Source: Allomuricauda sp. M10 (GTDB lineage: Bacteria; Bacteroidota; Bacteroidia; Flavobacteriales; Flavobacteriaceae). Taken from it: 64,000 nucleotides of DNA. Under the pieces are notes generated by a model that was given only the letters and a program-made list of their open reading frames with translations, was not told the origin of the DNA and made no database searches. The position numbers were made by a program, and so were the translations under genes. Numbering within the stretch: position 1 is the stretch's first letter; the number at the start of each line of letters is the position of its first letter. This document shows positions 4,452-57,408 of the stretch, in pieces. The stretch is taken from assembly GCF_020782875.1 (NCBI RefSeq), contig NZ_JAJGBN010000002.1, forward strand, positions 124,001 to 188,000, given 5' to 3'.

Positions 4452-4472
4452 CCTAAACCATGCCGATAATAA

Positions 4473-4500
4473 AAAAACGCCCTTTAAAAGGGCGTTTTTA
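4473..4500. terminator. bidirectional intrinsic terminator
   Basis: Near-perfect palindrome with arms AAAAACGCCCT / AGGGCGTTTTT and a short AT loop, A-rich on the left and T-rich on the right. It sits between two convergent genes ending at 4451 (+) and 4517 (-), so it can terminate both. Confidence 0.85.
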
Positions 4501-4516
4501 TTTTTTAGAAATCCTA

Positions 4517-5770
4517 TCAATCCAAACCAATCTGGCTCAACAGTTTAATATTGTTGTCCAAATATTCATATTGATACAGGACTCCGTCCCCTACCATGAT
4601 CAAATGACTTTCCAACGGAATCACATCAAAGGTGACAATGTCTTCAAAATGGTTTAATTGCTGAAGATCATGGATATCGGTTTTATCATAAACCTTCAAC
4701 CCTGAAGCTCCATCACAAACAAATAGCTTTTCATCCTTGATGCCTAATCCGTACGGACCATCCAAAGGATAGGATTCGGCTAGGACCGGACTTTCAATGG
4801 TACTGATGTCCACAATGAAGAGTCCACTTTCCGTTGCACCACACCAGTTACCTCCGCGAAGGGTTACATAAGCATAATCCCCATCCACCACCACGGGATC
4901 ACAAGCGGTTCCATGTTGAAATTCGGATACGAACGTTGGCGTTGCAGGAGTGGTAATATCATAAATGTACATGCCGCGCATGCTGCCCAAAAAAAGGTAA
5001 TTGCCTTGATTGAAAATGGTCTCAATATCGAATCCAGCGAATACATCCTCCAAATCCTTGGGATTGTCCAAATCGGAAATATCAAAAATGTTGATGTTAT
5101 GGCTATCCACAGCGTACAAGTATTCCGCCACAATCTTGAATCGGGCCAACGAACCTCCTTGTCCTGTGCCGCTATCGGACGATTCTGAGGCGGCCAAACC
5201 ATCCATCAGCACAAAGTCACCGTTTCTTTGTTCCACCTCCGATTTTAATCTTCTTTCGGTTGTGGTCTCCCAACCCACAACAATCTCCATATCATAGTCA
5301 TAATCTTCGTACTCGAACAAATCGGCCTCCATCGGAAAAAATACGTTGTTGTACAGTACATCTTCCAACCGATTGACCTGCTGAATGTTATTGATATCGG
5401 ATATATCAAGAACTACAAGATCCATCATGCTATCCGCAAACAAGTAATCATTTTTGATGGAGATATCGATATTTCCGGGAATGTTGATAAACCCAACTTT
5501 TACGGGTTGTTCTGGATTGCTATTGTTGATGACATGGATACCTCGGTATTTATCATTGATAAAGATGTATTCGCCGTAAGCATACACTTTTCCCGATTCT
5601 TCAATAGGTTTGGGCGCAATGATGGTAACGCTGGTGGCAAATTCCGCCTTGGTCATGACCAACGGTCTGGCCACGATATATTCGGCATATTGATCATCCG
5701 AATTATCATTGGAACAGGAAACCAAGAACAGTATGTTCAGGGACATTAAAAGGAAAAGGGTCTTTTTCAT
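4517..5770 (-). CDS. LVIVD-repeat lipoprotein
   Basis: A 417-residue exported lipoprotein. The start at 5770 (MKKTLFLL) is preferred over the upstream ATG at 5791 because it directly begins a lipoprotein signal with lipobox LVSC (Cys about residue 20). Repeats such as GIHVINNSNPEQPVKVG, LVVLDISDINN, NINIFDISDLDNPK, MYIYDITTPATP and LFIVDISTIESP are LVIVD-type propeller repeats, found in cell-surface proteins of bacteria and archaea. Their ligand is generally unknown, and no catalytic motif is visible here. The gene converges on the BNR-propeller gene and diverges from miaB. An extracytoplasmic binding or scaffold role is inference. Confidence 0.8.
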   Translation of the reverse strand: MKKTLFLLMSLNILFLVSCSNDNSDDQYAEYIVARPLVMTKAEFATSVTIIAPKPIEESGKVYAYGEYIFINDKYRGIHVINNSNPEQPVKVGFINIPGNIDISIKNDYLFADSMMDLVVLDISDINNIQQVNRLEDVLYNNVFFPMEADLFEYEDYDYDMEIVVGWETTTERRLKSEVEQRNGDFVLMDGLAASESSDSGTGQGGSLARFKIVAEYLYAVDSHNINIFDISDLDNPKDLEDVFAGFDIETIFNQGNYLFLGSMRGMYIYDITTPATPTFVSEFQHGTACDPVVVDGDYAYVTLRGGNWCGATESGLFIVDISTIESPVLAESYPLDGPYGLGIKDEKLFVCDGASGLKVYDKTDIHDLQQLNHFEDIVTFDVIPLESHLIMVGDGVLYQYEYLDNNIKLLSQIGLD

Positions 5771-5929
5771 AGCGGTTTGTGTTTTAATCACATAGATGGA
5801 AATTTCATGAAAAGTTGCGCCATGTACGGCCGAAAATTTACTACGACCTCTACATGAATAAAGGCATCAACGGACGTAAACCAAGATGATTAACGGTTTC
5901 CTCAATTTAATCTTAAAAAATACTGCCAT

Positions 5930-5962
5930 ATTGTCACTAAAATGGAATAAGCACTATCTTTG
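5930..5962 (+). promoter_or_regulatory. flavobacterial promoter of miaB
   Basis: ATTG at 5930-5933 and TATCTTTG at 5955-5962 are separated by 21 bases, fitting the Bacteroidota -33/-7 pattern (TTTG, TAnnTTTG). The miaB ATG is at 5980, so the leader would be short. Confidence 0.65.
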
Positions 5963-5979
5963 CACCCCATTGAAGTAAT

Positions 5980-7443
5980 ATGATCAAGGACGAAAGCGTA
6001 GAGAAAATGATAGACGAGAGCCAACAGGGAACTCCCTTGGCGCTTCAACATAATGATAAAAACACCCGCAAACTTTATATTGAAAGTTATGGGTGCCAGA
6101 TGAATTTTTCCGATAGTGAGATCGTGGCCTCCATCTTGTCCAAGGAAGGTTTTAACACCACCCAACTGTTGGAAGAAGCTGATTTGGTATTGGTGAACAC
6201 CTGCTCCATTCGTGAAAAGGCGGAACAGACCGTACGCAAGCGTTTGGAAAAATTCAATGCCGTAAAAAAAATAAATCCGGGAATGAAAGTCGGCGTTTTG
6301 GGCTGTATGGCCGAACGTCTGAAAAGCAAATTCCTGGAAGAAGAAAAAATTGTGGACATGGTCGTGGGTCCCGATGCCTACAAAGACCTGCCCAACCTGA
6401 TCCAAGAAATTGATGAAGGCCGAAACGCCGTGAACGTGATCCTCTCCAAGGACGAAACTTATGGCGATGTGGCCCCTGTTCGTTTGAACAGTAATGGTGT
6501 CACTGCATTTGTATCCATCACCCGAGGTTGCGACAATATGTGTACTTTTTGCGTGGTGCCTTTCACCCGTGGCCGTGAACGCAGCCGCGACCCACAATCC
6601 ATTTTGGAAGAAGTGAACGACCTTTGGGAAAGGGGTTTTAAGGAAGTGACCCTTTTGGGTCAGAATGTGGACAGTTACCTTTGGTATGGCGGCGGACTCA
6701 AGAAGGATTTCGAGAAAGCCTCGGAAATGCAAAAGGCCATATCGGTGAACTTTGCCAAACTTTTGGAAATGGTGGCAGAGGCACAACCCAAAATGCGTAT
6801 CCGTTTCTCCACCTCCAACCCGCAGGACATGACCTTGGATGTGATCGAGAGCATGGCCAAATATGACAACATCTGCAAATACATCCACTTGCCCGTTCAA
6901 AGTGGTAGCAATAGGATTTTGAAGGAAATGAACCGTCTTCACACCCGCGAGGAATATTTTGAACTGATCGACAACATCAAAAAAATTATTCCCGATTGTG
7001 CCATTAGTCAAGATATGATCACCGGATTCCCAACAGAGACCGAAGAAGATCATCAGGACACCTTGAGCCTTATGGAATATGTAAAATACGATTTCGGTTT
7101 TATGTTCGCCTATTCTGAAAGACCCGGAACCTTGGCAGAACGCAAAATGGAAGACGATGTTCCCGAAGAAACCAAGAAAAGACGTCTATCTGAAATCATC
7201 GACCTGCAACAAAAACATGCCCACTTCAGAACCCAAGAACACTTGGGCAAGGTTGAGGAGGTGCTGATCGAAGGACCTTCCAAAAGATCCGACGCCCACT
7301 GGATGGGTCGAAATTCGCAGAACACCGTAGTGATATTTCCAAAGGAACACTACCAAGTGGGCGATTTTGTCAACGTAAAGATCAATGAATGTACTTCGGC
7401 CACCTTGATCGGTGAGGCCTTGGAGTATTCAAAAAATAATTAA
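5980..7443 (+). CDS. miaB: tRNA-2-methylthio-N6-dimethylallyladenosine synthase MiaB
   Basis: Radical-SAM methylthiotransferase that adds the methylthio group to i6A37 of tRNAs reading U-starting codons. It has 487 residues, normal for the family. The N-terminal UPF0004 domain carries the first cluster cysteines Cys39, Cys75 and Cys109. The radical-SAM cysteines are in CDNMCTFC (Cys184, Cys188, Cys191). A C-terminal TRAM region covers about residues 410-480. The N-terminal ~30 residues precede the conserved [12 protein letters not shown] start and may be dispensable. The gene has its own promoter and is followed by 97 bases carrying small repeats before the sigma-54 activator gene. Confidence 0.95.
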
Positions 7444-7465
7444 CCACTTTTTGTTTCCCGGTTTG

Positions 7466-7488
7466 TTCACTGAGCGTAGTCGAAGTGC
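7466..7488. repeat. short intergenic repeat with GAGCGTAGTCGAAG core
   Basis: The 23-base segment contains CACT-GAGCGTAGTCGA-AGTG, an imperfect palindrome. I recognise this core as a motif scattered in intergenic spaces of many flavobacterial genomes. I saw only one copy in this window. It lies between miaB and the sigma-54 activator gene. Confidence 0.45.
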
Positions 7489-7514
7489 AAATCGGAATGC
7501 AAGAAAGAAAAGAC

Positions 7515-7531
7515 ACCTGCCGATGCAGGCA
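7515..7531. repeat. short hairpin repeat CCTGC-CGAT-GCAGG
   Basis: Perfect 5-bp inverted repeat with a 4-base loop, 10 bases before the start of the sigma-54 activator gene at 7541. It has no T-tract, so it is not a typical terminator. It could be a small mobile-type palindrome or an RNA hairpin near the ribosome binding region. Confidence 0.4.
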
Positions 7532-7540
7532 AAATAGAAA

Positions 7541-8827
7541 ATGGAAAGTGTACAATCCATAAAACAACGGTTTGAGTTGATCGGTAACGATGTAAAACTC
7601 AACCGGGCCATAGAAAAAGCCATTCAAGTGGCACCAACGGACATCTCAGTTTTGGTGACAGGGGAAAGTGGGGTTGGAAAAGAATCCATCCCCAAGATCA
7701 TTCATTCCCTATCGCACCGTAAACATGCCAAATATATTGCAGTAAACTGCGGGGCCATTCCCGAAGGGACCATAGACAGTGAACTTTTTGGACACGAAAA
7801 AGGCGCCTTTACCGGGGCCACCCAAACCCGAAGCGGTTATTTTGAAGTAGCTGATGGCGGGACCATCTTTTTGGACGAGGTAGGGGAACTTCCCCTCACC
7901 ACGCAAGTACGTTTGCTCCGTGTATTGGAAAATGGGGAATTCCTGAAAGTAGGTTCTTCCCAAGTACAAAAGACCGATGTGCGCATTGTGGCCGCAACCA
8001 ACATCAATATGTTCGAGGCCATCAAAAAGGAAAAATTCAGGGAAGACCTTTATTATAGGTTGAGCACCGTGGAAATCCATATTCCACCGTTAAGGGAAAG
8101 ACGGGAGGACATCCACTTGTTGTTCCGAAAGTTCGCTTCGGATTTTGGACAGAAATACAAGATGCCCACCATCCGTTTGGAAGATGATGCCGTGCATTTG
8201 TTGCTAAAATATCACTGGCCCGGGAACATCAGACAGTTGCGTAATATTGCCGAACAAATTTCAGTATTGGAAGAAAACCGCACCATCTCCGCAGCCACTT
8301 TGAACAGCTATCTGCCCGATGCCGCCGGTTCCAATTTACCTGCCGTGGTGGGTCAGCCTAAGAAGGAAAGCGATTTCAGCAATGAACGGGAAATTCTGTA
8401 CAAGGTTTTGTTCGATATGAAAAGTGACCTGAACGACCTTAAGAAATTGACCTTGGAACTATTGAAGGACAACGACACTTCCAAAGTGCAGAAGGAAAAC
8501 GAAAACCTGATCCGAAAAATTTACGGCAACCATGATGAGGAAGAGGACATTGATCTAGAGGAAAATGTGGCAACCGAAGTTTTAGGGCTCCCAGAACCGG
8601 TGATGGAAGCTACAACTTCATCTGGTGTAGTGCTGCAACCCCAAGAGGACCGATATCATTTTGCCGAAGAAATCCAAGAGGAAGAAACCTTATCTTTACA
8701 GGAGAAGGAAATCGAATTGATCAAAAAATCGTTGGAGCGTAACCGCGGTAAGAGAAAAGCTGCGGCAGCTGAACTGGGCATTTCGGAAAGAACCCTTTAC
8801 CGAAAAATTAAACAATATGATCTTTGA
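7541..8827 (+). CDS. sigma-54-dependent transcriptional activator (AAA+ / Fis-type HTH)
   Basis: A 428-residue bacterial enhancer-binding protein that remodels RNA polymerase-sigma-54 to open promoters. The AAA+ domain starts almost at the N-terminus: Walker A GESGVGKE (41-48), the sigma-54 contact loop GAFTGA (88-93) and Walker B around GGTIFLDE (106-113). There is no N-terminal receiver, GAF or PAS sensor. An unusual acidic, charged linker of roughly 110 residues (about 275-385) separates the AAA+ domain from a C-terminal Fis-type helix-turn-helix (RKAAAAELGISERTLYRKI). It lies between miaB and lptE, 12 bases before lptE. How it is controlled is not visible. A candidate sigma-54 promoter is found 1.9 kb downstream at groESL. 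Confidence 0.92.
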   Translation: MESVQSIKQRFELIGNDVKLNRAIEKAIQVAPTDISVLVTGESGVGKESIPKIIHSLSHRKHAKYIAVNCGAIPEGTIDSELFGHEKGAFTGATQTRSGYFEVADGGTIFLDEVGELPLTTQVRLLRVLENGEFLKVGSSQVQKTDVRIVAATNINMFEAIKKEKFREDLYYRLSTVEIHIPPLRERREDIHLLFRKFASDFGQKYKMPTIRLEDDAVHLLLKYHWPGNIRQLRNIAEQISVLEENRTISAATLNSYLPDAAGSNLPAVVGQPKKESDFSNEREILYKVLFDMKSDLNDLKKLTLELLKDNDTSKVQKENENLIRKIYGNHDEEEDIDLEENVATEVLGLPEPVMEATTSSGVVLQPQEDRYHFAEEIQEEETLSLQEKEIELIKKSLERNRGKRKAAAAELGISERTLYRKIKQYDL

Positions 8828-8839
8828 TCTTCGATTAAA

Positions 8840-9376
8840 ATGATTGCAAAACACATGAACATACAAAATGGATTTAGGGTCGCAGTGTTGGGAATAACCT
8901 TATTCCTTTCCGGTTGCGGGGCCTATAATTTTTCTGGAGCCGATGTTGGCGAAGCTAAAACCTTTCAGGTGAACTTTTTCCAAAATTACGCCGATCAAAC
9001 TCCGGGTTCCGTGATTGTACCTGGATTGGACAGGGATTTTACTTTGTCCCTTCAGGATATGATCAACAACCTTACAAGCCTTTCTTTGACCGGAAACAAT
9101 GGAGATTTGCTCTACGAAGGTGAAATTGTGGAATACAAGGTCATCCCGATGACGGCCACTTCCGATCAACGGACCGCGCAGAACCGACTCACCATGAGCG
9201 TGAACGTTCGATTTTTCAACAAGAAAAAACAGGACAACGATTTTGAACGAAGGTTCTCCTTCTTCTATGATTTTGATGCCGCCGCATCCCTGACATCGGT
9301 TCAGTCCGCGGCACATGAAGAAATTTTTGAACGACTGACACAGGATATTTTCAACGCATCCTTAGGTAATTGGTAA
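8840..9376 (+). CDS. lptE: LPS-assembly lipoprotein LptE
   Basis: Outer-membrane lipoprotein that plugs and matures the LptD barrel for LPS insertion. It has 178 residues, with signal and lipobox LSGC (Cys26 from this start; ATG at 8855 is an alternative). It begins CGAYNFSGAD, as Bacteroidota LptE proteins do, and has the short alpha/beta fold length of the family. Conserved pieces include LDRDFTLSLQDMI and GEIVEYKV. It sits 12 bases after the sigma-54 activator gene and 7 bases before the TPR-like gene, in one transcription unit with secG. No LptD is in the window. lptC lies far away at 58.9 kb. Confidence 0.85.
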   Translation: MIAKHMNIQNGFRVAVLGITLFLSGCGAYNFSGADVGEAKTFQVNFFQNYADQTPGSVIVPGLDRDFTLSLQDMINNLTSLSLTGNNGDLLYEGEIVEYKVIPMTATSDQRTAQNRLTMSVNVRFFNKKKQDNDFERRFSFFYDFDAAASLTSVQSAAHEEIFERLTQDIFNASLGNW

Positions 9377-9383
9377 CTACATT

Positions 9384-10274
9384 ATGAACGTTTCGGATTT
9401 TATACATATTCTTCAGAACTCCAATACCATCCTTTCCCCGAAACAAACACGGGAACTGGAGGATATGATCGAGGAATATCCCTATTTTCAAGCGGCAAGG
9501 GCCTTGCACCTGAAAGGGTTGAAAAATCTGGACAGCTACAAATACAACAATGCCCTAAAGGTAACCGCAGCGTACACCACGGACCGCGATGTCCTTTTTG
9601 ATTATATCACTTCCAACGAATTCGTTCAGAACAATATCGCCGACGCCATTGCGGGAAGAGGCTCTAAATTGGAGGACCAAAAGGCTATATCCGAAGAAAT
9701 TGAACCCAACCCACATGCAGAAAGTATGTTGGTGGAATCCGAGGAACCAGCATTACCTCAAAACCTTCAAGATGCCGAACAGATTCTGAATCCAGAACTC
9801 TTTAAGACCAGGCCAAAGGAGGAGCCCGTAGTTCCCATTGAAAAGGAAAAAACTTCTAAACCTGAAAAGGAACTCAATCTGGGCAAACCCATTCCCTTCA
9901 CCAAAAAAGAAAAGCATTCGTTCACGGAATGGCTGCAACTAACCTCCAAAACCGAGGAACAGGAAGTTGAGGAAAACGGGATGGAAGAACTGGAGCGGAA
10001 GAAGAAATTCGAGCTTTTGGACAAGTTCATCGAAAACAATCCCAAGATCGTACCTGCCGAAAATATGAACCCCAAAGTCAACATTAAAGAGTCCACGAAG
10101 TTCGATAAAAACGAGTTGATGACCGAGACGTTGGCCAAGGTGTATTTGGAGCAAAAAAAATATAAAAAGGCAATTCAAGCCTTTAAAATATTGAGTTTGA
10201 AATATCCAGAAAAAAGTGGTTTCTTTGCAGACCAAATTCAGGCGGTGAAGAAGCTGCAGAACGAAAAAGAGTAA
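9384..10274 (+). CDS. conserved TPR-like cytoplasmic protein
   Basis: A 296-residue soluble protein without signal peptide or membrane segment. The first ~90 residues (SDFIHILQNSNTILSPKQTR, DMIEEYPYFQAARALHLKGL) are helical. The middle (about 100-230) is acidic, lysine-rich and probably disordered. The end has one clear tetratricopeptide-like repeat (ETLAKVYLEQKKYKKAIQAF, then LSLKYPEKSGFFADQI). It sits between lptE and secG, an arrangement I know from other Flavobacteriaceae, so it probably belongs to the envelope-biogenesis operon. The function is unknown. A protein-protein interaction role is inference from the TPR. Confidence 0.75.
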   Translation: MNVSDFIHILQNSNTILSPKQTRELEDMIEEYPYFQAARALHLKGLKNLDSYKYNNALKVTAAYTTDRDVLFDYITSNEFVQNNIADAIAGRGSKLEDQKAISEEIEPNPHAESMLVESEEPALPQNLQDAEQILNPELFKTRPKEEPVVPIEKEKTSKPEKELNLGKPIPFTKKEKHSFTEWLQLTSKTEEQEVEENGMEELERKKKFELLDKFIENNPKIVPAENMNPKVNIKESTKFDKNELMTETLAKVYLEQKKYKKAIQAFKILSLKYPEKSGFFADQIQAVKKLQNEKE

Positions 10275-10283
10275 AATAAAGAA

Positions 10284-10652
10284 ATGAGCACGTTTACAAT
10301 TTTTTTGATATTGATCATTATCGTGTGCCTTTTATTGGTGTTGGTCATCATGGTCCAAAACCCTAAAGGTGGTGGTTTGTCCTCTTCATTTGGAGGTGGA
10401 GGAACCCAAGTTGTGGGCGGTGTAAAGAAGACTGGTGACTTTTTGGACAAAAGTACCTGGACCCTTGCCACCCTGTTGATTGTGTTGATCTTACTTTCCA
10501 ACGTTTCCTTGAAAGGAAACTATGGCAGTGCAGATTCCAAACTGTTGCAGGGCGATGACATTGAGTCGGTTCCAGAAACGGTTCCTGAAGAAGTGCCAGA
10601 ACAACTTCCACCTGCCGGTAACACCAATCCAACGGATACTATCGGAGGATAA
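10284..10652 (+). CDS. secG: protein translocase subunit SecG
   Basis: Small inner-membrane subunit of the SecYEG channel that helps SecA-driven export. It has 122 residues with two membrane helices (about 3-24 and 54-74). The family motif VQNPKGGGLSSSFGG lies between them, then FLDKSTWTLA. The C-terminal ~45 residues form a proline/glutamate-rich tail, longer than in E. coli SecG and common in Bacteroidota. It is the last gene of the miaB-to-secG run, 9 bases after the TPR-like gene, and is followed by a strong terminator. Confidence 0.93.
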   Translation: MSTFTIFLILIIIVCLLLVLVIMVQNPKGGGLSSSFGGGGTQVVGGVKKTGDFLDKSTWTLATLLIVLILLSNVSLKGNYGSADSKLLQGDDIESVPETVPEEVPEQLPPAGNTNPTDTIGG

Positions 10653-10673
10653 TTCGAAGTGACAAAGTATACC

Positions 10674-10709
10674 AAAATGCCAGCTTGAATGACAAGCTGG
10701 CATTTTTGT
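10674..10709 (+). terminator. intrinsic terminator after secG
   Basis: Hairpin AATGCCAGCTTG / CAAGCTGGCATT with a 5-base loop, followed by TTTTGTT. It separates the secG unit from groESL. Confidence 0.88.
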
Positions 10710-10735
10710 TCCACAGAATGTCAGTTTTTGCGCAT

Positions 10736-10750
10736 TGGCACAATTTCTGC
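10736..10750 (+). promoter_or_regulatory. candidate sigma-54 (-24/-12) promoter of groESL
   Basis: TGGCAC at 10736-10741 and CTGC at 10747-10750 place GG (10737-10738) exactly 10 bases from GC (10749-10750), the diagnostic spacing of sigma-54 promoters (YTGGCACRnnnnYTGCW). The predicted start would be near 10761, 37 bases before the groES ATG. No TAnnTTTG element and no CIRCE inverted repeat is seen in this leader. A sigma-54 activator gene lies at 7541-8827. The assignment is inference. Confidence 0.5.
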
Positions 10751-10797
10751 CCAATTGATTCGAGAATTTTTAAATCAAATACCTAAAAATTAATAAT

Positions 10798-11076
10798 ATG
10801 GCTAAAGTAAATATCAAACCATTGGCAGATAGGGTGCTGATTGAGCCGCTACAGGCCGAGACCAAGACTGCCTCAGGTATCATCATTCCTGACAATGCAA
10901 AGGAAAAACCACAAAAAGGAACCGTAGTGGCCGTTGGCCCTGGCACCAAAGATGAAAAGGTGACCGTTAAGGTAGGTGATACCGTGCTTTATGGAAAATA
11001 TGCCGGGACCGAACTTAAATTGGACGGTACCGACTATTTGATGATGCGAGAGAGTGATATTTTGGCAATTGTTTAA
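10798..11076 (+). CDS. groES: co-chaperonin GroES
   Basis: The 92-residue, 10-kDa lid of the GroEL folding chamber. It has the typical start [11 protein letters not shown], the mobile-loop region [20 protein letters not shown], the core [15 protein letters not shown] and the end [13 protein letters not shown]. It lies 23 bases before groEL and forms a bicistronic heat-shock unit with it, bounded by terminators at 10674 and 12756. Confidence 0.98.
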
Positions 11077-11093
11077 TCAAAAAAATCAACTAA

Positions 11094-12728
<1,635 letters not shown>

Positions 12729-47866: not shown

Positions 47867-47876
47867 TGCTTTCTTG

Positions 47877-48602
47877 ATGAAACAATTCCTTCTTTTTTTG
47901 GCTCTATTAGGATTGATGGGATGCAAAACATCCATCCCTTCTGAAAATTACGTCACTCCCACTTTAAAAATAGAACCGCTTACCGAGCACACCTATTTGC
48001 ACGTATCGTACTTGGAAACCGAAAGTTTCGGAAAAGTGAGCTGTAACGGAATGATTGTGGTGAACAATGGTGAAGCCATTGTGTTTGATACTCCTGTTAA
48101 CAATGACGTTTCAGAAGAGCTTTTGAAATGGTTAAAATCGAAAAAATTGAAAGTCAAGGCAGTTGTGGCTACGCATTTCCATGATGATTGTTTGGGCGGA
48201 CTTGAAGCATTTCATGCTGAACAGATACCTTCCTACGCCAACCAAAAGACCATTGAATTGGTACAGGACAAGCCGGTAACCATTCCATTGAATGGATTTT
48301 CAAAATCTTTGGATTTGCAGGTTGGGGATGAAACTGTGATTCTCGATTTTGTGGGAGAAGGACATACTGTGGACAATATTATCGGTTATTTCCCAAAAGA
48401 GCAGACCATGTTCGGTGGCTGTTTGATAAAATCCGTCGGGGCCGGCAAAGGTTATCTCGAAGATGCCAATGTTAAAGAATGGTCCCAAACCGTTTCAGAA
48501 ATCAAGAAAAAATATCACCAGACCAAACTTGTGGTTCCAGGTCATGGCCAGTATGGTGACCAAAAATTGCTTGACTTTACTATTGAGCTCTTTAGGGAGT
48601 AG
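47877..48602 (+). CDS. subclass B1-like metallo-beta-lactamase, lipoprotein
   Basis: Zinc hydrolase of the metallo-beta-lactamase fold, 241 residues from the ATG at 47877 (a TTG at 47874 is less likely). It has a lipoprotein signal with lipobox GLMGC (Cys16). All six zinc ligands of true class B1 lactamases can be placed: His100, His102 and Asp104 in THFHDDCLGG, His163 in GEGHTVDN, Cys182 in FGGCLIKS and His223 in VPGHG. This matches flavobacterial IND/BlaB-like enzymes. It lies only 10 bases after the GHMP kinase stop and is probably co-transcribed with it. Beta-lactam hydrolysis is likely but unproven. Confidence 0.88.
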   Translation: MKQFLLFLALLGLMGCKTSIPSENYVTPTLKIEPLTEHTYLHVSYLETESFGKVSCNGMIVVNNGEAIVFDTPVNNDVSEELLKWLKSKKLKVKAVVATHFHDDCLGGLEAFHAEQIPSYANQKTIELVQDKPVTIPLNGFSKSLDLQVGDETVILDFVGEGHTVDNIIGYFPKEQTMFGGCLIKSVGAGKGYLEDANVKEWSQTVSEIKKKYHQTKLVVPGHGQYGDQKLLDFTIELFRE

Positions 48603-48677
48603 TTTGAATTTTTAACCAATCCAAATCCATCATTTATAAATCCATAGAGGTTGTTCGTCAATTGAAGGCCTTATCTG

Positions 48678-49376
48678 ATGCTTCTTTTTTACACTTTTCT
48701 ACTCAACTATGTAAAATTGAGTATTATGGCCATTTGGAACAATCCCTTGTTTATCAGTAAAAAAGAAAGATTCCTCAATCTAAGAATGCCTTTATTTTTG
48801 GCATTGGCATTACTTTCAAATTTGATCATGCTGTTTATGTTATGGGTGGATAAAGATCAAACTTCAATGAAACTTGTTGGACTGGCACAACTGGTTTCCT
48901 TTATGCTTTATGCCATTCTAATTTTGACACTGTTCATTTATCCCCAAATGCACAACAAAGAATCATTAGGATTCCTTTCCCTTCCGAGTATGCACCATCA
49001 GAAGTATGAAAAAACAGGACTTTCTGATGCCTTTTCGTTAGAATTGAAAGAGAAATTAGAAGATGTCATGAACAATCAAAAGTTGTATTTAAAACATGAA
49101 CTTAGATTGGACGATATTGCAGAATTGCTGAACATTTCCAGGCATCATGCCTCCCAAGTGATCAATGAAAATTTCAACATGAATTTTTATGATTTTGTGA
49201 ATGCATACCGGATTGAAGAAGCCAAGAAAATACTTTTATCCGGATTTGAAAGCAACTCCGATTCCATTTCGGACCTTGCCTATCAATGTGGTTTCAATAA
49301 CCGTGTTTCTTTTTATAAGGCCTTCAAGAAAATTACACAAACCACTCCAACAGAATTTATGAATAAAGCTGTTTAA
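48678..49376 (+). CDS. AraC-family regulator with membrane segments, apparently N-terminally truncated
   Basis: A 232-residue protein. The C-terminal ~110 residues are an AraC helix-turn-helix pair (LRLDDIAELLNISRHHASQV, ISDLAYQCGFNNRVSFYKAF, TTPTEFM). In front are two hydrophobic helices (about 37-56 and 67-88, ending LTLFIYPQM). Flavobacterial regulators of this layout usually have six or seven helices and about 370 residues, and the piece kept here corresponds to the last two helices plus the DNA-binding part. An in-frame stop lies only 15 bases before the ATG, so nothing more is encoded upstream. It may be a degraded or shortened regulator; it precedes susC. Confidence 0.7.
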   Translation: MLLFYTFLLNYVKLSIMAIWNNPLFISKKERFLNLRMPLFLALALLSNLIMLFMLWVDKDQTSMKLVGLAQLVSFMLYAILILTLFIYPQMHNKESLGFLSLPSMHHQKYEKTGLSDAFSLELKEKLEDVMNNQKLYLKHELRLDDIAELLNISRHHASQVINENFNMNFYDFVNAYRIEEAKKILLSGFESNSDSISDLAYQCGFNNRVSFYKAFKKITQTTPTEFMNKAV

Positions 49377-49735
49377 AATCCATGAACACATGATGCACTT
49401 TTATACGGCCTATCCTGCATTTCCTCCTTTTTGACCAAATGCTAACCGTGTTTTCATTTCTTATTCCCAACCAAAAATCACAAGAATTCCTTTTTGAAAA
49501 TCCACTGGAAATTGTAAATGTAAATCCCTATCGGGAATGTTGTAAAGGTTTTTAAGCCTTAACAAGTGCCGTTGAATCTTTTAGTTTTTTTGCTCGGCAA
49601 TCCACAAGGTGGGGGCTCTAAAACTTACTTCTTCCCCAAATTTCATTGTTTAGGAAGATTATTTGATTTAGCCTACAAATAAGATTTTACCTCCTGCCTT
49701 GCGCGATTGCGCTAACTAACTTTAATCAAATTTGT
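49377..49735. other. 359-base gap upstream of susC
   Basis: No convincing gene. The longest plus-strand frame here is 38 codons (49439-49555), with no family resemblance. Visible details are a TCCC-TATC-GGGA hairpin at 49525-49536 and a tandem TTGCGC-GA-TTGCGC at 49700-49713, 22 bases before the susC ATG. No clear TAnnTTTG promoter is seen for susC. The region probably holds the susC leader and control sites, possibly used by a regulator acting without a standard promoter. Confidence 0.5.
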
Positions 49736-52700
49736 ATGAAAACCAAAAAGTATTGGATGGTGCTCGGGCTGTTTCTCTTTGTATTTGGAACAGTTCTGGC
49801 TCAAGAAAAAAATGTTTCAGGTACGGTGACCGATCAGGATGGCCTACCACTTCCGGGGGTATCGATCTTGGTAGTGGGAACTTCCGTCGGAACCCAAACC
49901 GACTTTGATGGAAATTACTCCATCATGGCAAGCGTAGGAGGCACCTTGCGCTTCAGCTACATCGGACAAAAAACTGTGGAACGGACAGTTGGTTCCTCTG
50001 CTGTAATAAATGTCCAAATGCAGGAGGACGCCCAAGTTCTCGCAGAAGTGGTCCTTACTGCATTAGGACTTGAGAAAAAGAAAGATGAAGATTTAAGTTC
50101 ATCAACTGCAGTTAATGTTGACGCTCTTAAAAAATCTGGAGAGACCGGGGTAATTCAGAGCCTGACAGGAAAAACATCAGGATTGCTTATTACAAAATCT
50201 ACAGGAGACCCAGGAGCAGGCGCATACATTCAAATTAGAGGCCAAAATACAATTTTAGGAAGCGGATCTCCTTTGATTATTCTTGATGGGGTTCAGATTT
50301 CAAATACAAGTGTTGGCAGCAATACAGCTGGAGTTGTACAACAATCCAGGTTAAATGACATTAACCCTGAAGATATTGAAAGTGTAACCGTACTAAAAGG
50401 AGCTGCCGCTGCTGCCGTCTATGGAACCGGTGCAGCGAACGGTGTGCTTGTCATCAAAACAAAAAGAGGTGCTTCGGGGGGAAGGAAGCTATCCGTAAGC
50501 ATTAAAAGTTCCGTTGCCTTTGATGAAGTCCTTGTGGAGCATGAAAAGCAAGGGAAATTTGGTCAAGGCTATCCTTTGTATTGGTCAACTGGTGACATAG
50601 CAGACCATAACGGAATTTTTGTCCCGAATACTGGTTTCTCATGGGGAGACAAGATTAGTGAAAGATCTGGAGCTGCTGATGAAATTGATGCTTCGGCAGG
50701 TTATTTTGAAGCAAGGGATGGATCAATATATAATTATATTGTCGCGCAAGGAAAAAATTCAAGGTCAGTTTACAATCGCTCAAACAGAGATCAAATTTTC
50801 AGGACAGGACTCACACTTGAAAACAACCTTTCGATTGGTTTCAATGGTCAAGATAGTCGTTCATTGTTCAGCATTTCAAATCTGGATCAAGAAGGTATTA
50901 TTAAGGGGAATTCCAATTACAAAAGGTTTAACGTTCGATTTAACCATGAGGCTGAATTAACCGATAAAATTACGTTGAAGTTAAACTCTCAATACTCTAA
51001 AGTCAATTCGGATAGGATTCAAACCGGATCCAATACAAGTGGTTTATATCTGGGATATCTGAGAACTTCCCCTGATTTTGACAATTCGGATTATATCGGA
51101 ACCTATTATAATGCCAATGGTGTTGCAACCCTAAACTCCCATAGGGGATATCGAAACCAAATTGGCTCATCAACACCTGCTTATAACAACCCCGGATGGA
51201 CCATATATGAACAGGACAATCCAAACGTGGTTGAACGGTTCATAATCAATCCTGAGCTGGTTTGGATGTTCCTTGATAAGCACAGCGTAACTGTCAGATA
51301 TGGTATCGACTATTACAATGATATCAGAGAAACTTTCTTCCCGGTTCGATCAAGTAGTTTTCCATCTGGTTCATTCTCAAGGGATGAAATCAAAGAAAAA
51401 AGTCAGACGCTCAACACATTTTTTACCTCTAATTGGGTACAAAATGAAAACTTTGGATTCACAAGTATTTTGGGTGCTCAATTGGAGTCAAATGATTATC
51501 ATAGATTATCAGGTTCCTCAACCAATTTTACCAATCCCTTCGTGGATGACCTCAGAATCTTTGGAAATGCCGAAGGTAGCAATGAACTCCCTTCATCCTT
51601 TATGCAAGAAACAAGAAAATCTGGTGTATATGGGGTTTTGAATGCTGAAGCATGGCAACAGTTATATTTTGAACTTACTGCCAGGTATGAGAGGCCCAGC
51701 ACCTTAGATAAAAATATTTTTTACCCAAGTGCGGCAATAGGATGGTCCTTTTCCAAGCTTATTGGAGAATCAGATATTTTGAGCTTCGGTAAATTGCGTG
51801 CATCCTATGGAGAAGTTGGTATTGAACCATCTGCTTATGCATCTTCAACTACTTTTAGTCCAGGAGGTTTGGTCTCCGGATGGGGAGATGGGCTTGCTGC
51901 TTCTGTTTATGGCAACCCTTTTACTCGTAGCACAACCCTAGGTAATCCAAATTTAAAGGAAGAAAGGGTTAAAGAATATGAGATTGGAGCTGATTTGAGA
52001 TTCTTCAATAGTCGTCTTTCTATAGGTGGTACTTATTACGATAGGGTAACCGAAGATGTTATTTTACCGATTGATTTAGCACCGTCAACAGGGTTTTCAA
52101 ACTATTTATCAAATGCAGCCGAAATATCCAATAAAGGGATAGAGCTTGATTTGAGTTATAAAATCATATCTACCCAAGATCTTTCTTGGGAAATTACCGC
52201 CAACTGGTCAAAGAACAAGAACATGGTTGAGGATTTGAGCGGTGTGGCGGAATATAGTCTTAACGGATTTACTGGAAGTACTTCCTCTGTAGTAGAAGGG
52301 CAGCCTTTCGGTGTAATTTGGGGAAATGATTTTCTTAGAAATGAAGATGGCACGTTACAATTGGACAGCAATGGTTTCCCAATAGCAGATCCTGAAAGCT
52401 CTGTTCTTGGAGACCCAAACCCCGATTGGCGTGGTGGTTTAGGGACAACATTCTCATTTAAAGGCTTCAATATTTCTGCCTTTGTAGATACTTCACAAGG
52501 CAATGATATGTGGACAGGTACAGAAGGTGTACTTAAATACTTTGGTATACACCCAGAAACCGCAAATGAATCAACCTCTGACATACCATTGGCCAATTAC
52601 TATGGAGAAGTTTATCCGGCCGGAACCACTTTTAGAGGAAACATATATGATTTTGGCGGGGGTCCTGTAGCATTGGATGCAGATTGGTATACTGATTTAG

Positions 52701-52984
52701 GCGGAGGATTTGGAGCCAACACAAGTCAATTTGTTAAAGACGCCTCTTGGACAAGGTTGAGGGAAGTTTCGCTAGGATATTCCTTGCCGTCAAAAGTTGT
52801 TGAAGCAATAGGATTCACTAGTCTTGATTTTTCATTGACCGGCAGAAACTTGGTTCTGTGGACAGATATTCAAGGAACCGATCCTGAGTCAAATTTGACC
52901 GGAGCTTCAAAAGGAAGAGGATTGGATTATTTTACCAACCCCAGTACAAAATCTTATTTATTCACTGTTAGGCTAACTCTTTAA
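49736..52984 (+). CDS. SusC/RagA-family TonB-linked outer-membrane transporter
   Basis: TonB-dependent porin that imports glycans, peptides or other nutrients with a SusD lipoprotein lid. It has 1082 residues with a signal peptide (about 1-22, ending VLAQ). A carboxypeptidase-like domain (about 24-100, VSGTVTDQDGLPLPGVSILV, GTQTDFDGNYSI) is followed by a TonB box region (EVVLTALGL), the plug (GLLITKSTGDPGAGAYIQIR, PLIILDGVQI, VLKGAAAAAVYGTGAANGVL) and the barrel, ending in an aromatic strand. The gene is intact, in contrast to the interrupted susD next to it. No enzyme genes follow, so the substrate cannot be inferred. Codon use looks AT-richer than neighbouring housekeeping genes. Confidence 0.93.
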   Translation: MKTKKYWMVLGLFLFVFGTVLAQEKNVSGTVTDQDGLPLPGVSILVVGTSVGTQTDFDGNYSIMASVGGTLRFSYIGQKTVERTVGSSAVINVQMQEDAQVLAEVVLTALGLEKKKDEDLSSSTAVNVDALKKSGETGVIQSLTGKTSGLLITKSTGDPGAGAYIQIRGQNTILGSGSPLIILDGVQISNTSVGSNTAGVVQQSRLNDINPEDIESVTVLKGAAAAAVYGTGAANGVLVIKTKRGASGGRKLSVSIKSSVAFDEVLVEHEKQGKFGQGYPLYWSTGDIADHNGIFVPNTGFSWGDKISERSGAADEIDASAGYFEARDGSIYNYIVAQGKNSRSVYNRSNRDQIFRTGLTLENNLSIGFNGQDSRSLFSISNLDQEGIIKGNSNYKRFNVRFNHEAELTDKITLKLNSQYSKVNSDRIQTGSNTSGLYLGYLRTSPDFDNSDYIGTYYNANGVATLNSHRGYRNQIGSSTPAYNNPGWTIYEQDNPNVVERFIINPELVWMFLDKHSVTVRYGIDYYNDIRETFFPVRSSSFPSGSFSRDEIKEKSQTLNTFFTSNWVQNENFGFTSILGAQLESNDYHRLSGSSTNFTNPFVDDLRIFGNAEGSNELPSSFMQETRKSGVYGVLNAEAWQQLYFELTARYERPSTLDKNIFYPSAAIGWSFSKLIGESDILSFGKLRASYGEVGIEPSAYASSTTFSPGGLVSGWGDGLAASVYGNPFTRSTTLGNPNLKEERVKEYEIGADLRFFNSRLSIGGTYYDRVTEDVILPIDLAPSTGFSNYLSNAAEISNKGIELDLSYKIISTQDLSWEITANWSKNKNMVEDLSGVAEYSLNGFTGSTSSVVEGQPFGVIWGNDFLRNEDGTLQLDSNGFPIADPESSVLGDPNPDWRGGLGTTFSFKGFNISAFVDTSQGNDMWTGTEGVLKYFGIHPETANESTSDIPLANYYGEVYPAGTTFRGNIYDFGGGPVALDADWYTDLGGGFGANTSQFVKDASWTRLREVSLGYSLPSKVVEAIGFTSLDFSLTGRNLVLWTDIQGTDPESNLTGASKGRGLDYFTNPSTKSYLFTVRLTL

Positions 52985-52993
52985 TTAAAAAAA

Positions 52994-54313
52994 ATGAAAA
53001 AGCAATTTAAAATATCATTTGTATTTCTGGCAATCCTTGCCATAATATCCTGTGAGAGTTATGTTGAAGACATTAATATTGATCCCAATAACTTTACAGA
53101 TGCCCCAGGATCATTAGTTATCGGACAAGCTATGCTAACCGCTTCAAAAATATCGGAGAGTCAAGCCGCTAGGTACGCTGGTATTTTTACTGATCAGTTT
53201 AGTGGTTGCGACAGACAGTTCATCTCTTATGAAAACTATAATGTAATTGCAGGTGACTTTGACGATACCTGGACCGATATTTTTGCCTCTGGTATTGGAC
53301 AAGCCAAATACGTGCAAGAGAAAGCTTCAACTGACGGGGATATTGTTCTCGAAGGGGTGGCACAGATAATGGAAGCATTACTTACAGGTGAAGCAGCAGC
53401 ATTATTTGGAAATGTTCCTTTTACAGAAGCGGCCAACGCTACTGAGTTTCCAAATCCAACTTATGACAATCAATTGCAAGTTTTAGAAGGTGTACAACAA
53501 ATTCTTGATCAAGCGATTGTAAAAGTTGAAAATACGACTGTTTCAAATGGATATGGATCTTCCATATACGTCCAGAACAGTGCAACTTGGAGAGAAATCG
53601 CTTTCAGTTTAAAAGCAAGGTATTATCTTATTGCAAAAGAGTATGAGAATGCCGCATTAGCAGCAGCGAACGGAATTTCGGCACCAGAAGGCGACTTACT
53701 TACCTATCATAGTGCAACAGATTTTCAAGAGAACATGTTTTGGCAATTTATAGTTGAACAAAGGGCCGGTTACTTAGGTATATGTAATGATCCTCTTTTA
53801 GTACAACTTTTAGACGGCACAAAACCAAGACTGTTGGAAACCCCCTGAGATTCAGAAAGATTAATACACTATTTCGATGTTGAAAATCTTGAATTAAACA
53901 CCAATCAAGGAGGTTACTTTGCTATTGATGCTGCCTTCCCGGTTGTTTCATATCTTGAAACTAAACTAATTCAAGCGGAATCCTTAGCAAGAGCTGGAGA
54001 TGATGGACTTGCTCCTTTTAATGAAGTTAGAGATTATTTGGCTGGCAAGTATAATGCAGAATTTCCTCATTCAGGAGCTAGCGGAAACGATCTTGTATCT
54101 CAAATCATTGAGGAAAAGTATATTTCACTACCTGGCTCACTACAAGTATTCCATGACGTAAGAAGAACAAATAATAGTATTGGTGTCCCAATAAAAAACA
54201 ATCAAGCGTCGGATATTCCGCAGAGGTTTTTATACCCACAAGTTGAAATTAATGCCAATGCCAATTATCCAGGTTCCGAAAGTCTTTTTACCAAAACACC
54301 TTCAAACCAATAG
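52994..54313 (+). pseudogene. SusD/RagB-family lipoprotein interrupted by an in-frame TGA
   Basis: Surface nutrient-binding lipoprotein partner of SusC. The frame opens with a signal and lipobox IISC (Cys about 20). It runs 284 codons with SusD-like parts (IDPNNFTDAP, TWTDIFASGIGQAKYV, GEAAALFGNVPFTEA, ATWREIAFSLKARYYLIAKE). It then meets TGA at 53846-53848 (codon 285, after PRLLETP). The same frame continues without any shift as DSERLIHYFDVENLELN, FPVVSYLETKLIQAESLARA and FHDVRRTNNSIGVP to the natural stop at 54313. The total would be 439 residues, close to family length. A single CGA or GGA to TGA change explains it. It could be a nonsense mutation, readthrough or a sequencing error. Confidence 0.85.
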
Positions 54314-54383
54314 ACTTCAATTTCCAGTTTTTAATTACTGGAATCTGATAAAGAAATAAATAATTCAAACATTTAAAATTTTG

Positions 54384-54415
54384 GGAGGCCTGGTTTCTAC
54401 TTGGCCTCCTTTTTG
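54384..54415 (+). terminator. intrinsic terminator after susCD
   Basis: Seven-bp stem GGAGGCC / GGCCTCC with a 12-base loop, followed by TTTTTGTTTT. It closes the susC-susD unit. Confidence 0.8.
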
Positions 54416-54512
54416 TTTTATAAAAATTATATTAAGCCAATCCAATTTATCCCCCCATCCATCCAAACCCCATATTCATCAATTCTACCCCATATTTATA
54501 AATCGTAGCCAT

Positions 54513-54520
54513 TAAGTTTG
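54513..54520 (+). promoter_or_regulatory. possible -7 element of the orphan secreted-protein gene
   Basis: TAAGTTTG fits TAnnTTTG, 25 bases before the ATG at 54546. No -33 TTTG at the right distance. Confidence 0.35.
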
Positions 54521-54545
54521 GTGCTGATCATTAAATGCAGCTACC

Positions 54546-55121
54546 ATGTTATTTCACAAAAGCATTGTCCTAATCTTGAGCATGGGATTTTACTTTACCA
54601 ATTACATTGGTCACTGCCAAAGCAACAAACTCGCCACTGAACGCTTGGATCGTTTCATGCAAGAAAATTGCAAGTCCTATTACACAGAAATGGATTCGGT
54701 CAACATTGCTAAAGTACTTCGGCACAAAGTATACCACATCAACCAGGAAATCCAAAACCTGTATGGACAAAAAAATAAAGACTCCAATTTGTTCATTGTA
54801 ATTGATGACGGACAACAAGTACAACCATTTGAAACTATCGGCAAAAACACCAACTTACCCAAACTGATGCATTTTATAAGGGAAGATTTCGTTTTAAATG
54901 ACAAATCCGCTCCTTTATTCCAAGTCGTATTGGATGCCATTTATCCTCTCCCGGAATGGAAACCGGATAAAAGAGAGTATTTTTTCCGCGATGGTAAATG
55001 GTATTTTCTGCGTGATGCCTATTTCCGGACCAAACAAGGTTTTGAAATCACTATTGATGCAGATGGGAAGATTACAGGAATCTGTTATAAAATGAAATGG
55101 GACGACCATGAACGGTCGTGA
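54546..55121 (+). CDS. orphan secreted protein of unknown function
   Basis: A 191-residue protein with an N-terminal signal-like hydrophobic stretch (about 5-22). It is followed by a soluble domain with aromatic and charged C-terminal strands (KREYFFRDGKWYFLRDAYFR, FEITIDADGKITGICYKM). I do not recognise a family. It stands alone between two terminators and is AT-rich like the susCD region. The Cys near the end of the hydrophobic stretch (GHC) does not fit a standard lipobox, so soluble periplasmic export is more likely. Confidence 0.6.
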   Translation: MLFHKSIVLILSMGFYFTNYIGHCQSNKLATERLDRFMQENCKSYYTEMDSVNIAKVLRHKVYHINQEIQNLYGQKNKDSNLFIVIDDGQQVQPFETIGKNTNLPKLMHFIREDFVLNDKSAPLFQVVLDAIYPLPEWKPDKREYFFRDGKWYFLRDAYFRTKQGFEITIDADGKITGICYKMKWDDHERS

Positions 55122-55148
55122 TTTACATAACAATTCTTCTTAAACAAA

Positions 55149-55173
55149 AAAACCTCCCAATTTGGGAGGTTTT
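55149..55173. terminator. bidirectional intrinsic terminator
   Basis: AAAACCTCCC / GGGAGGTTTT stem with a 5-base loop flanked by A- and T-runs, between the orphan gene (+) and the PPIase gene (-). Confidence 0.88.
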
Positions 55174-55195
55174 CTATTTCTAGTTGTAAAGAATC

Positions 55196-57325
55196 CTAGT
55201 AAAAGATTCCTCTGTTGTCCTCGATTTCTGCCTTTTCTTTCAAGGCATTGTAAACGGCACCGTTCACCCTAGCAGCAGCACTGCTACGCAAAGTATTGGC
55301 ATAGGTACTGAAGTTATCTACCTCAGGAGCAGCTTCTTTTTTGGTCACTTTTAGCATGAAAACACCAGTTTCCCCTTTGATCAAATTGGAGGTCTGTCCT
55401 TGGTCCAATCCAAAAGCAGTTCCTACTACCAAAGCCTCACGACCTGCACCTGGCAATGTTGGGGCTTTCATGGTTACGGCAGAAGCATTACTTAAACTTA
55501 CATTGTTATCTGAAGCAATGGCCTCCAAAGCTTTCCCCTTGTTGGCGGCAATGATTCGTTCCGCTTTGATTTCCTTTCTGATCTCAGGTAATGCCATGGC
55601 AGAAGCATCTTCTGTGGACATCAATCCCTTTTTGTATTTTTTCGTCAACTGAACCACGGCATAACCATTGGTTACATTGAATCTTTTAATATCCCCTACA
55701 TTGGTATCCGCATTAAATGCCCATTGAACCACACTTCGTTGTGCACCAAGACCTGGAAGGTTTTCATCCATTTCCCCTATTTTGTTCACTGGTCTGACCG
55801 TAAAGGAACTTTCCCTGGCAATGTCACCAAAATTCTCTGGTTCAGAATCCATGCTGGCCATCTCAAACTTGGTGGCATCGGTAAAAATACCGTTGATGGT
55901 TTCTTCGGAAGGTTGAAGTTCCCTCGCCAAAGTAGCAACTTGTACAATGTTCTGCTTATCATCAATTTTTATCACGTGGAAACCGAAAGGGGTTTCTACC
56001 ATTCCTATTTCTCCCGTTTCATGTGAAAAGAGAAACTTGCGATAAGCCTCGGCCAATCTCACATTGGATTCTTGAAAATATCCGATATCCCCAGCACGTT
56101 GCGCAGCTGTTGGGTCATCAGAGTTTTCCCTTGCCAAAGCGGCAAAATTGGCATCTGCACCTTTAGCTTCCGCCAACAATTTTTTAGCTGTTTCCTCCGC
56201 TTCCTCTTTGGTTCTTGTAATCTCGGATCCCGCTCTTTCCGCACCAGCATAGGCAATAAGAATATGGCTGGACTTTACCGATCCATTGGATTTTTTATCC
56301 ATGATCTTAGAAAGTTTGTAGTAATCGCCATCCTTGTAAGGACCATAGATTTCACCTACTCCTAAAGCCATCAAAGTATCGGCTACAGAAGAAGGTAAGT
56401 CATTTTTAGCCTTGTAGATGGTATCGAATTTGATATCGGAGTGTCTATCCAAAAATGCGGCCATGTCCTTGGTAGTCCTGAAACCTGGAACGGTATCATA
56501 GGAATCACTTCCTTCAGAATACTCCACGGTATCATCCAACAAAGCAGTAATTTCTGCTTTTACGTTGTTTTCATCTGTTCCAGAAGGCTTTTCTTCAAAA
56601 TAAACGAAACGGATATCACGGGCCACATTCTGTTCGAACAAAGTTTTGTGAGCATCAATATACTTTTGGATCTGCTCCTTGGAAACTTCAATGGTACTAT
56701 CTGCAATTGACGTATACGGAACTCGAACAAACTGCATGTCCACTTTGTCATTGGCCAATTTGTAATCGAATTTTCCCTCGGCCAATGTAGCACCCACACC
56801 ACCTTTGATCAAGTTGAAATACATTCGCTCTTTGGCAGCTTCAATAATGGCTTTTTCATCCTGTAACCATGCATCATAGCGCAACGGATCGTTGGCCCTC
56901 CAATCGGCAATGGCACTTTTGAAAACCTCTTCATTGAATATTCCGTTCTCATCCTGAAAATCTGGGATTTGGGCGTAACCAGAAGTTTTTACAAACTCAA
57001 TGATCTGATCGCTTTCCACATCAATGCCCAAATCTTGGAACTGTTGGTTCAGGATGGCTTTACGAACTTCTTGATCGTATACCATGTTCACCAGTTGCAT
57101 GGATGTAAAACTTGGGGGATAGCTTCTAGAAGCGGTTTCTACCTTACTCCTAAAATCCTCAATGGAAATATCCTCACCATTTACTTCGGCCACAGAAGAA
57201 CCTACTTTACCCCCTCCAAAACCATCACTTTTGAAAACTCCGGATATTACAAATGCGAACAAAGCCAGACCTATGATCAAGATCAAAACGGTTGTCCGTT
57301 TTCTAATACTCTCTAATATTGCCAT
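55196..57325 (-). CDS. SurA/PpiD-type periplasmic peptidyl-prolyl isomerase chaperone
   Basis: Membrane-anchored folding factor for exported and outer-membrane proteins, 709 residues. The start at 57325 (MAILESIRKRTTVLILII) gives the typical PpiD N-terminus with one membrane helix (about 12-33); the frame to 57367 adds 14 unlikely residues. A SurA-N-like helical domain precedes a parvulin domain with KSSHILIAYAGAE and GFHVIKIDDKQ (about 345-465). The remainder is a chaperone-like extension. It heads toward lptC and CNNM genes in a minus-strand envelope cluster. Confidence 0.9.
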   Translation of the reverse strand: MAILESIRKRTTVLILIIGLALFAFVISGVFKSDGFGGGKVGSSVAEVNGEDISIEDFRSKVETASRSYPPSFTSMQLVNMVYDQEVRKAILNQQFQDLGIDVESDQIIEFVKTSGYAQIPDFQDENGIFNEEVFKSAIADWRANDPLRYDAWLQDEKAIIEAAKERMYFNLIKGGVGATLAEGKFDYKLANDKVDMQFVRVPYTSIADSTIEVSKEQIQKYIDAHKTLFEQNVARDIRFVYFEEKPSGTDENNVKAEITALLDDTVEYSEGSDSYDTVPGFRTTKDMAAFLDRHSDIKFDTIYKAKNDLPSSVADTLMALGVGEIYGPYKDGDYYKLSKIMDKKSNGSVKSSHILIAYAGAERAGSEITRTKEEAEETAKKLLAEAKGADANFAALARENSDDPTAAQRAGDIGYFQESNVRLAEAYRKFLFSHETGEIGMVETPFGFHVIKIDDKQNIVQVATLARELQPSEETINGIFTDATKFEMASMDSEPENFGDIARESSFTVRPVNKIGEMDENLPGLGAQRSVVQWAFNADTNVGDIKRFNVTNGYAVVQLTKKYKKGLMSTEDASAMALPEIRKEIKAERIIAANKGKALEAIASDNNVSLSNASAVTMKAPTLPGAGREALVVGTAFGLDQGQTSNLIKGETGVFMLKVTKKEAAPEVDNFSTYANTLRSSAAARVNGAVYNALKEKAEIEDNRGIFY

Positions 57326-57408
57326 TTTACTGCGTGTTTCTTTAAATTCAGTGGGCGAAAATACCACTTTCTTTTCAAATAGGAAAGCTTAAAAAGCTGC
57401 GGAAATTG

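Follow-up and report, generated by a model that had tools for sequence, protein, structure and literature searches.

The pedal-bin importer Bt1762-Bt1763 is a SusC-SusD pair like the one described here, although its SusD belongs to a different subfamily; in the part of the account available from PMC7782687, a strain without the SusD grew on levan only after a lag of about 8 h, and the function of the SusC N-terminal extension is reported as unknown. The rag locus of Porphyromonas gingivalis occurs in four types, with RagA proteins 58–97% identical to that of W83, and the excerpted text of PMC11817032 proposes horizontal transfer and describes the RagA signal peptide and N-terminal extension as highly conserved. 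The shufflons of Bacteroides fragilis work by inversion between repeats within one genome that holds silent copies, and, according to the available portion of PMC5729914, whole shufflons are also replaced by chromosomal transfer. SusC/RagA receptors of Salinibacter ruber lie in genomic islands, for which the authors suggest phage pressure (PMC6060240, in extract). Fresh nonsense and frameshift lesions in susD are on record too: they arose in parallel in an Elizabethkingia anophelis outbreak and were read by the authors as selected (PMC5458099, in extract), and a ragB/susD insertion recombinant from coevolved line 4 of Flavobacterium johnsoniae was as susceptible as the ancestor (PMC10197871, likewise in extract).

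The locus described here lies in a stretch of 64,000 nucleotides from Allomuricauda sp. M10, hereafter the window, and occupies a position conserved in the genus that we call the slot. As far as the available excerpts describe these systems, the slot resembles the rag locus in kind, being one locus with alternative SusCD-type pairs and a conserved N-terminal part, but it is far more diverse: it holds 14 types among 22 pairs with a median plug-plus-barrel identity of 24%, it spans the species of a genus, it has a linked AraC gene, and there are about as many empty slots as occupied ones. It shares with the shufflons the arrangement of alternative SusCD pairs behind one start region, but here neither a silent copy in the genome nor convincing inverted repeats in 48500–55300 were found. 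Like the Salinibacter ruber islands, which are flexible and lie at constant positions, it carries surface receptors; those are whole islands, however, whereas the window has a chimera at the boundary of the N-terminal extension. The susD lesion is, like those of E. anophelis and F. johnsoniae, single, fresh, and set in an otherwise intact genome, although theirs come from sampled populations and ours from one genome. We think it probable that the window carries a young nonsense substitution in the susD of a SusCD importer that had itself recently been swapped into the conserved slot.

An in-frame stop codon in susD

The susD gene (52994–54313, plus strand; SusD-like_2 family) lies directly 3′ of a full-length susC, with nine bases between the end of susC and the susD ATG at 52994, and terminates with a TAG at 54311–54313. 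Read through, it is 439 codons long: an in-frame TGA at codon 285 (53846–53848, plus strand) separates 284 sense codons from a further 154, with no change of frame. The frame reading, joined by the profile match and the alignment of homologues, bears out the original prediction that a single in-frame TGA, unaccompanied by any shift, splits susD while susC is open; the latter encodes 1082 aa and matches the NCBIfam model OMP_RagA_SusC at 592.5 bits against a cut-off of 368.25. The susD product begins with what we take to be a lipobox, and its N-terminus is thus presumably of the lipoprotein type. If the TGA acts as a stop there is no full-length product, while the 28 aligned homologues are unbroken at 434–480 aa. 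The only in-frame start codon 3′ of the TGA is a TTG at 54038, and we rejected a re-start there as a source of working SusD, as it lies deep inside the protein and lacks a signal peptide.

The SusD-like character claimed for both sides of the stop is seen directly on one of them: the Pfam SusD-like_2 profile (cut-off 27) scores 69.5 bits with the protein read through and 61.7 bits with residues 1–284, whereas the 154 post-stop residues alone give no Pfam match. These residues nevertheless align with the 28 homologues at 29–61% identity, and by homology they can be held to be SusD-like as well. A PDB sequence search with the window SusD returned five chains, the best of which (4ler_A) covers residues 26–211, and found no significant match for the part after the stop; a structure model (TGA as W, six sequences) had a mean pLDDT of 46, too poor for use, and was set aside.

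None of the 28 aligned homologues, which were taken from the loci found by requiring a match that extends to the C-terminus (shorter ones were excluded), has an internal stop. The column of the stop is occupied by glycine in 13, aspartate in 10, asparagine in two, and alanine, valine, and glutamate in one each, and it is glycine in all five homologues of at least 50% identity. A comparison of codon 285 with the closest strains had been proposed, with CGA, GGA, or TGA as the candidates; our comparison covers other species only, and within it glycine is the commonest residue and arginine, like the stop, is absent from all 28. The 21 other SusDs of the slot are likewise unbroken (460–567 aa). The genome itself has 17 SusD-like_2 stretches (14 genes by count), and the window's alone lies in a short frame, of 287 compared with 497–610 for the others; among the 55 TonB-plug matches of the genome none contains a stop within the match. 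The TGA thus appears to be more than a chance feature, being private among homologues and responsible for the sole short SusD-like_2 frame in the genome. The window susD is also rare: counting its own genome, only two of 71 genus genomes contain a match at E≤1e-60, and no SusD match in any search was closer than 53% identity.

Several observations bear on the age of the stop. Near-invariant positions were defined by conservation in at least 85% of the remaining sequences; at these, the window SusD is changed at one of 40 before the stop and two of 40 after it in a 17-sequence set, and at one of 33 and none of 28, respectively, in a 29-sequence set. On a fixed tree, the ratio of its terminal branch after the stop to that before it is 1.20, within the range of 0.36–2.00 for 16 intact homologues. 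No second lesion in susD was seen, and a simple neutral model limits the divergence accumulated after the stop (95% bound) to about 1.5% if indels occur at a tenth of the substitution rate and to 6% if they are left out. Because the post-stop part is as constrained as the part before it, the TGA would be either a very recent lesion or a base-call error, which are two of the readings offered by the original prediction and those that the equal constraint and the lack of a second lesion support.

An error of sequencing or assembly at the TGA, with susD intact in the living strain and the swapped-in module functional, is the alternative to which we give most weight, though we consider it unlikely. 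The same full constraint 3′ of the stop, and the absence of any other lesion, are what an error would leave, and a single frameshift in another receptor gene of the genome may hint at residual errors. This gene, for a TonB-dependent receptor (L119, on contig C19), is read as overlapping frames at 1561–2640 and 2456–3817, and it may be either a second one-lesion receptor or a sign of such errors. The assembly, however, is 100% complete and 0.49% contaminated in 24 contigs, and the TGA is a substitution, a less usual assembly error than a homopolymer indel.

Decoding and switching

A codon that is read through was another of the readings first offered, and the frame that stays open and the constraint kept after the stop would suit a TGA decoded by selenocysteine, a suppressor tRNA, or useful read-through to give a full-length SusD. 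The 37 tRNA genes detected (out of 215 first-look candidates, 150 were scored) all have anticodons other than UCA, however, and the best match to a selenocysteine tRNA reaches 41.3 bits against a cut-off of 47, at a place that is a tRNA-Ser. Profile searches identified release factors 1 and 2, and aggaggtatctttgac, which we take to be a UGA-dependent frameshift site, precedes the main frame of the RF2 gene. The termination machinery is thus standard. Recoding of the susD TGA is unlikely because no UCA anticodon occurs in the detected tRNA genes, no selenocysteine tRNA scores above the cut-off, and the RF2 gene has a UGA site; as the stop is also common to none of the homologues, the claim of read-through finds no support, and we consider productive decoding very improbable. 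Weak leaky read-through may occur.

A phase-type ON/OFF change had also been suggested, and reversible switching of susD has a precedent in the B. fragilis shufflons, where SusC/SusD genes switch by inversion (PMC5729914, as excerpted). The region 48500–55300 contains four inverted repeat pairs, all weak (77–88% complementary), one of which, of 34 nt (82%), has one arm in the AraC gene and the other at the end of susD. None of the four ends at the stop or at the start of susC, and inversion at the 34-nt pair would break both the AraC gene and susD. The lesion is moreover a substitution within one unchanged frame, and the genome holds no silent alternative copy of the window SusD above 31% identity, the value at which its next best SusD matches over part of the protein. 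Phase variation is thus unsupported, and we regard it as the least probable of the explanations considered here for the stop, leaving the young substitution as the preferred one.

A putative foreign module behind a resident SusC start

The susC gene (49736–52984, plus strand) appears to be composed of two parts. A block at 49510–50052 (plus strand), which includes the promoter and the first 105 or so susC codons, encoding the signal peptide and a CarbopepD-like N-terminal extension, is 85–90% identical in DNA to the corresponding loci of three relatives (G011, G455, and G473), and we refer to it as the resident block. The matched sequence on this 5′ side comprises the HMG-CoA-reductase side, the DNA-binding half of the AraC gene, the promoter, and the first susC codons. 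Identity falls between about 49950 and 50050, the individual matches ending at 49981–50052, and resumes at 54724; the segment between (50053–54723, plus strand), which contains the susC plug and barrel, susD, the 3′ intergenic region, and the start of the next gene, is unmatched at the DNA level by the syntenic loci of the three relatives. These match one another without a break across the stretch where the window departs, and their slot holds an operon of an AraC gene, susC, susD (SusD-like_2), and a small third gene; this susC-susD-lipoprotein operon is the resident one.

Comparison of the SusC proteins places the switch at the same point. In 30-residue windows, the window SusC up to about residue 90 scores 0.90–1.00 against slot SusCs and 0.43–0.87 against others, while from about residue 95–105 its nearest relatives are the SusCs that other genomes pair with window-type SusDs (0.57–0.87 in windows 91 to 315, versus 0.32–0.72 against slot SusCs). 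The N-terminal extension ends at this point, ahead of the plug. The three of the 22 slot SusCs nearest to the window in the extension (0.86–0.89) are those of the same three relatives, which are also its nearest relatives in the neighboring HMG-CoA reductase, and SusCs elsewhere in its own genome are 31–48% identical to the window extension (matches at five of the eight plug loci). The window SusC is therefore a chimera, with some 100 resident residues and the rest foreign.

By these comparisons the window susCD pair is not the resident one but a foreign module, probably swapped in recently. The sister genome G484, whose ppiD-like protein is 97% identical to that of the window, matches the three relatives beyond 54724 and into the resident lipoprotein gene; this genome is 79% complete and its contig ends soon, so that the slot is visible at the 3′ end only, and the dating of the swap rests on this partial locus. 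No resident SusD was found in the 79%-complete G484 assembly, and the window's own genome has no match to it at E≤1e-40. The GC content of the imported segment is 0.392, with lower values in five of 238 windows of equal length, and is thus low, yet only mildly unusual. Direct repeats bracketing the window's own cassette are not clear (score 11, shuffles up to 13).

The donor of the module was presumably distant, as even the best SusD match is no closer than the 53% given above. Nine regions around window-type pairs in other genomes gave no clue to a substrate; seven adjoin genes that we take to be rpsL/rpsG-like, or for an rRNA methylase and an AAA ATPase-like protein. These seven (L108–L111, L113, L115, and L116, from other genera), in which window-type or other SusCD pairs lie beside the ribosomal-protein or rRNA-methylase-like genes, point to a second SusCD-rich position in the family.

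The slot across the genus

In the genus the slot lies between conserved flanks, bordered on one side by genes for HMG-CoA reductase and a GHMP kinase and on the other by a gene for a 191-aa protein and a ppiD-like gene. We located it through the last of these (55196–57367, minus strand), which we presume to be PpiD-like and which is present in 70 of the 70 genus genomes searched, and we surveyed the first 47 of the 70 listed genomes, the window included. An AraC-SusC-SusD arrangement is present at 21 of the 47 loci, one genome having two pairs for a total of 22; at 17 loci the flanking genes are present but enclose no SusC, seven show neither SusCD nor the 191-aa gene (at two of these the examined stretch or the gene arrangement ended there), and two are cut by a contig end.

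At a threshold of 60% identity in plug plus barrel the 22 pairs fall into the 14 types. Across their 231 pairings the median identity is 0.72 for the extension, 0.24 for plug plus barrel, and 0.18 for SusD, and the extension is better conserved than the barrel in 222; the other nine are pairings within a type and show the usual order. At a control SusCD locus in 12 genomes, which was chosen as conserved (SusD frames alike in length) and is not an average locus, the medians are 0.86, 0.93, and 0.92, respectively, and one of 66 pairings has an extension more conserved than the barrel. For the seven genomes present in both sets, extension and barrel stand at 0.76 and 0.25 in the slot, and at 0.81 and 0.91 in the control. 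The slot thus has the signature of an allelic exchange locus for SusCD of the rag kind, with differing pairs at one conserved position, in which a conserved SusC start appears to be fused to an exchanged barrel; the order of conservation is reversed at the control locus. Word searches of open-licence PMC papers found no account of such a slot in the Flavobacteriaceae.

The conserved extension of all 22 pairs could also be expected if nothing had been exchanged, and a single ancestral SusCD had diverged in place, with strong diversifying selection on the barrel and SusD and constraint on the extension. We regard this as highly improbable, however, because the window-type SusD is closer to proteins elsewhere and in other genera (53%) than to those in the slot (15–24%), as is its SusC to those of other loci and genera; because a given type can be shared by genomes other than nearest neighbors (G458/G482, G026/G465b, and G001/G462); and because the three relatives are mutually continuous where the window breaks off. 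Exchange remains our preferred interpretation of the slot. At one locus (L161, in G465) two different SusCD pairs, both with the slot-type extension, lie in tandem at 2306–11740.

Proposed history

In the history that we favor, the comparisons show that a distant SusCD pair took the place of the resident susC-susD-lipoprotein operon from about codon 75–105 of susC in the lineage of the window, so that a foreign plug and barrel now follow the promoter, signal peptide, and N-terminal extension of the resident gene; homologous recombination through the conserved 5′ block and the 3′ flank probably brought this about. The TGA would have arisen after the swap. Its product is predicted to be a 284-residue lipoprotein without the C-terminal third of SusD, and SusC would be left without a working lid, with import of its substrate lost or much reduced. 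The original prediction had stated that SusC usually works poorly without its lid, in agreement with the delayed growth on levan of the strain without SusD (PMC7782687, as excerpted).

The stop may have drifted in an unused module, or selection may have favored it, acting against the new importer, a phage, or a toxic cargo; selection is a possibility because fresh susD lesions are on record (PMC5458099 and PMC10197871, both in extract). A broader proposal, which we advance more tentatively and hold to be about as apt to fail as to succeed, is that the genus keeps an importer-exchange slot with a fixed dock, consisting of the DNA-binding half of AraC, the promoter, and the extension, while the sensor half, SusC plug and barrel, SusD, and accessory lipoprotein are replaced or lost as a unit, sometimes by loss between flanking direct repeats, and that the stop is a switch-off of the imported module. 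If this is true, species could re-tool or hide a surface importer with its control unchanged, and the susD stop would end a fresh module that brought no benefit or did harm.

By itself, such a stop is nothing unusual, and the slot is the more useful of the two, as it offers a view of SusCD importers changing by whole-module replacement at a fixed position while the extension stays constant. Should barrels that share less than 30% identity function behind an almost unchanged extension, the extension would be a part separable from the transporter. The natural series of empty, resident, swapped, and swapped-and-broken slots would also provide a handle on importer turnover in relation to food, phages, and toxins.

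The AraC gene, flanking genes, and repeats

The AraC-type regulator gene (48678–49376, plus strand) has a counterpart in all 21 occupied loci, and across these the mean identity of the proteins is 28–44% in the N-terminal half and 70–81% in the DNA-binding half. The 191-aa gene (54546–55121, plus strand), within which DNA identity to the relatives resumes at 54724, has no Pfam match, and it flanks the slot in most of the genus loci examined.

Direct repeats of about 25–45 bases clearly bracket the slot in five of 19 occupied loci examined (G462, G018, G458, G465, and G482), with scores of 21–37 compared with up to 14 for shuffles; two occupied loci, G472 and G026, were left out of this test. 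The empty site of G487 reads like a hybrid of the two G458 repeat copies, consistent with recombination between the repeats as a route of gain or loss, without indicating the direction. Exact copies of the 14-base core motif of the repeats are present in 36 of 71 genus genomes, with up to 14 per genome; the window's own genome has no exact copy, and the reversed control motif gave none at all. We considered the repeats as the mobile-element boundary of a cassette, and rejected this because the exact core is dispersed across the genus in this way and is not a mark of the cassette; the dispersed motif is probably a regulatory site.

In the window, a motif of two direct repeats 21 bases apart, of the CATCCGTCA type, is seen both at 48640–48665, before the AraC gene, and at 54456–54490, before the 191-aa gene. 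This motif looks like a two-turn regulator site, and motifs of the CATCCGTCA type also occur in intergenic regions of L125–L169. A subclass B1 metallo-beta-lactamase gene at 47874–48602, beside the mevalonate genes, scores 256.5 bits with NCBIfam NF033088 (cut-off 200) and is below the cut-offs of all the named families shown; a homologue is present at the same place in 15 of the 47 loci.
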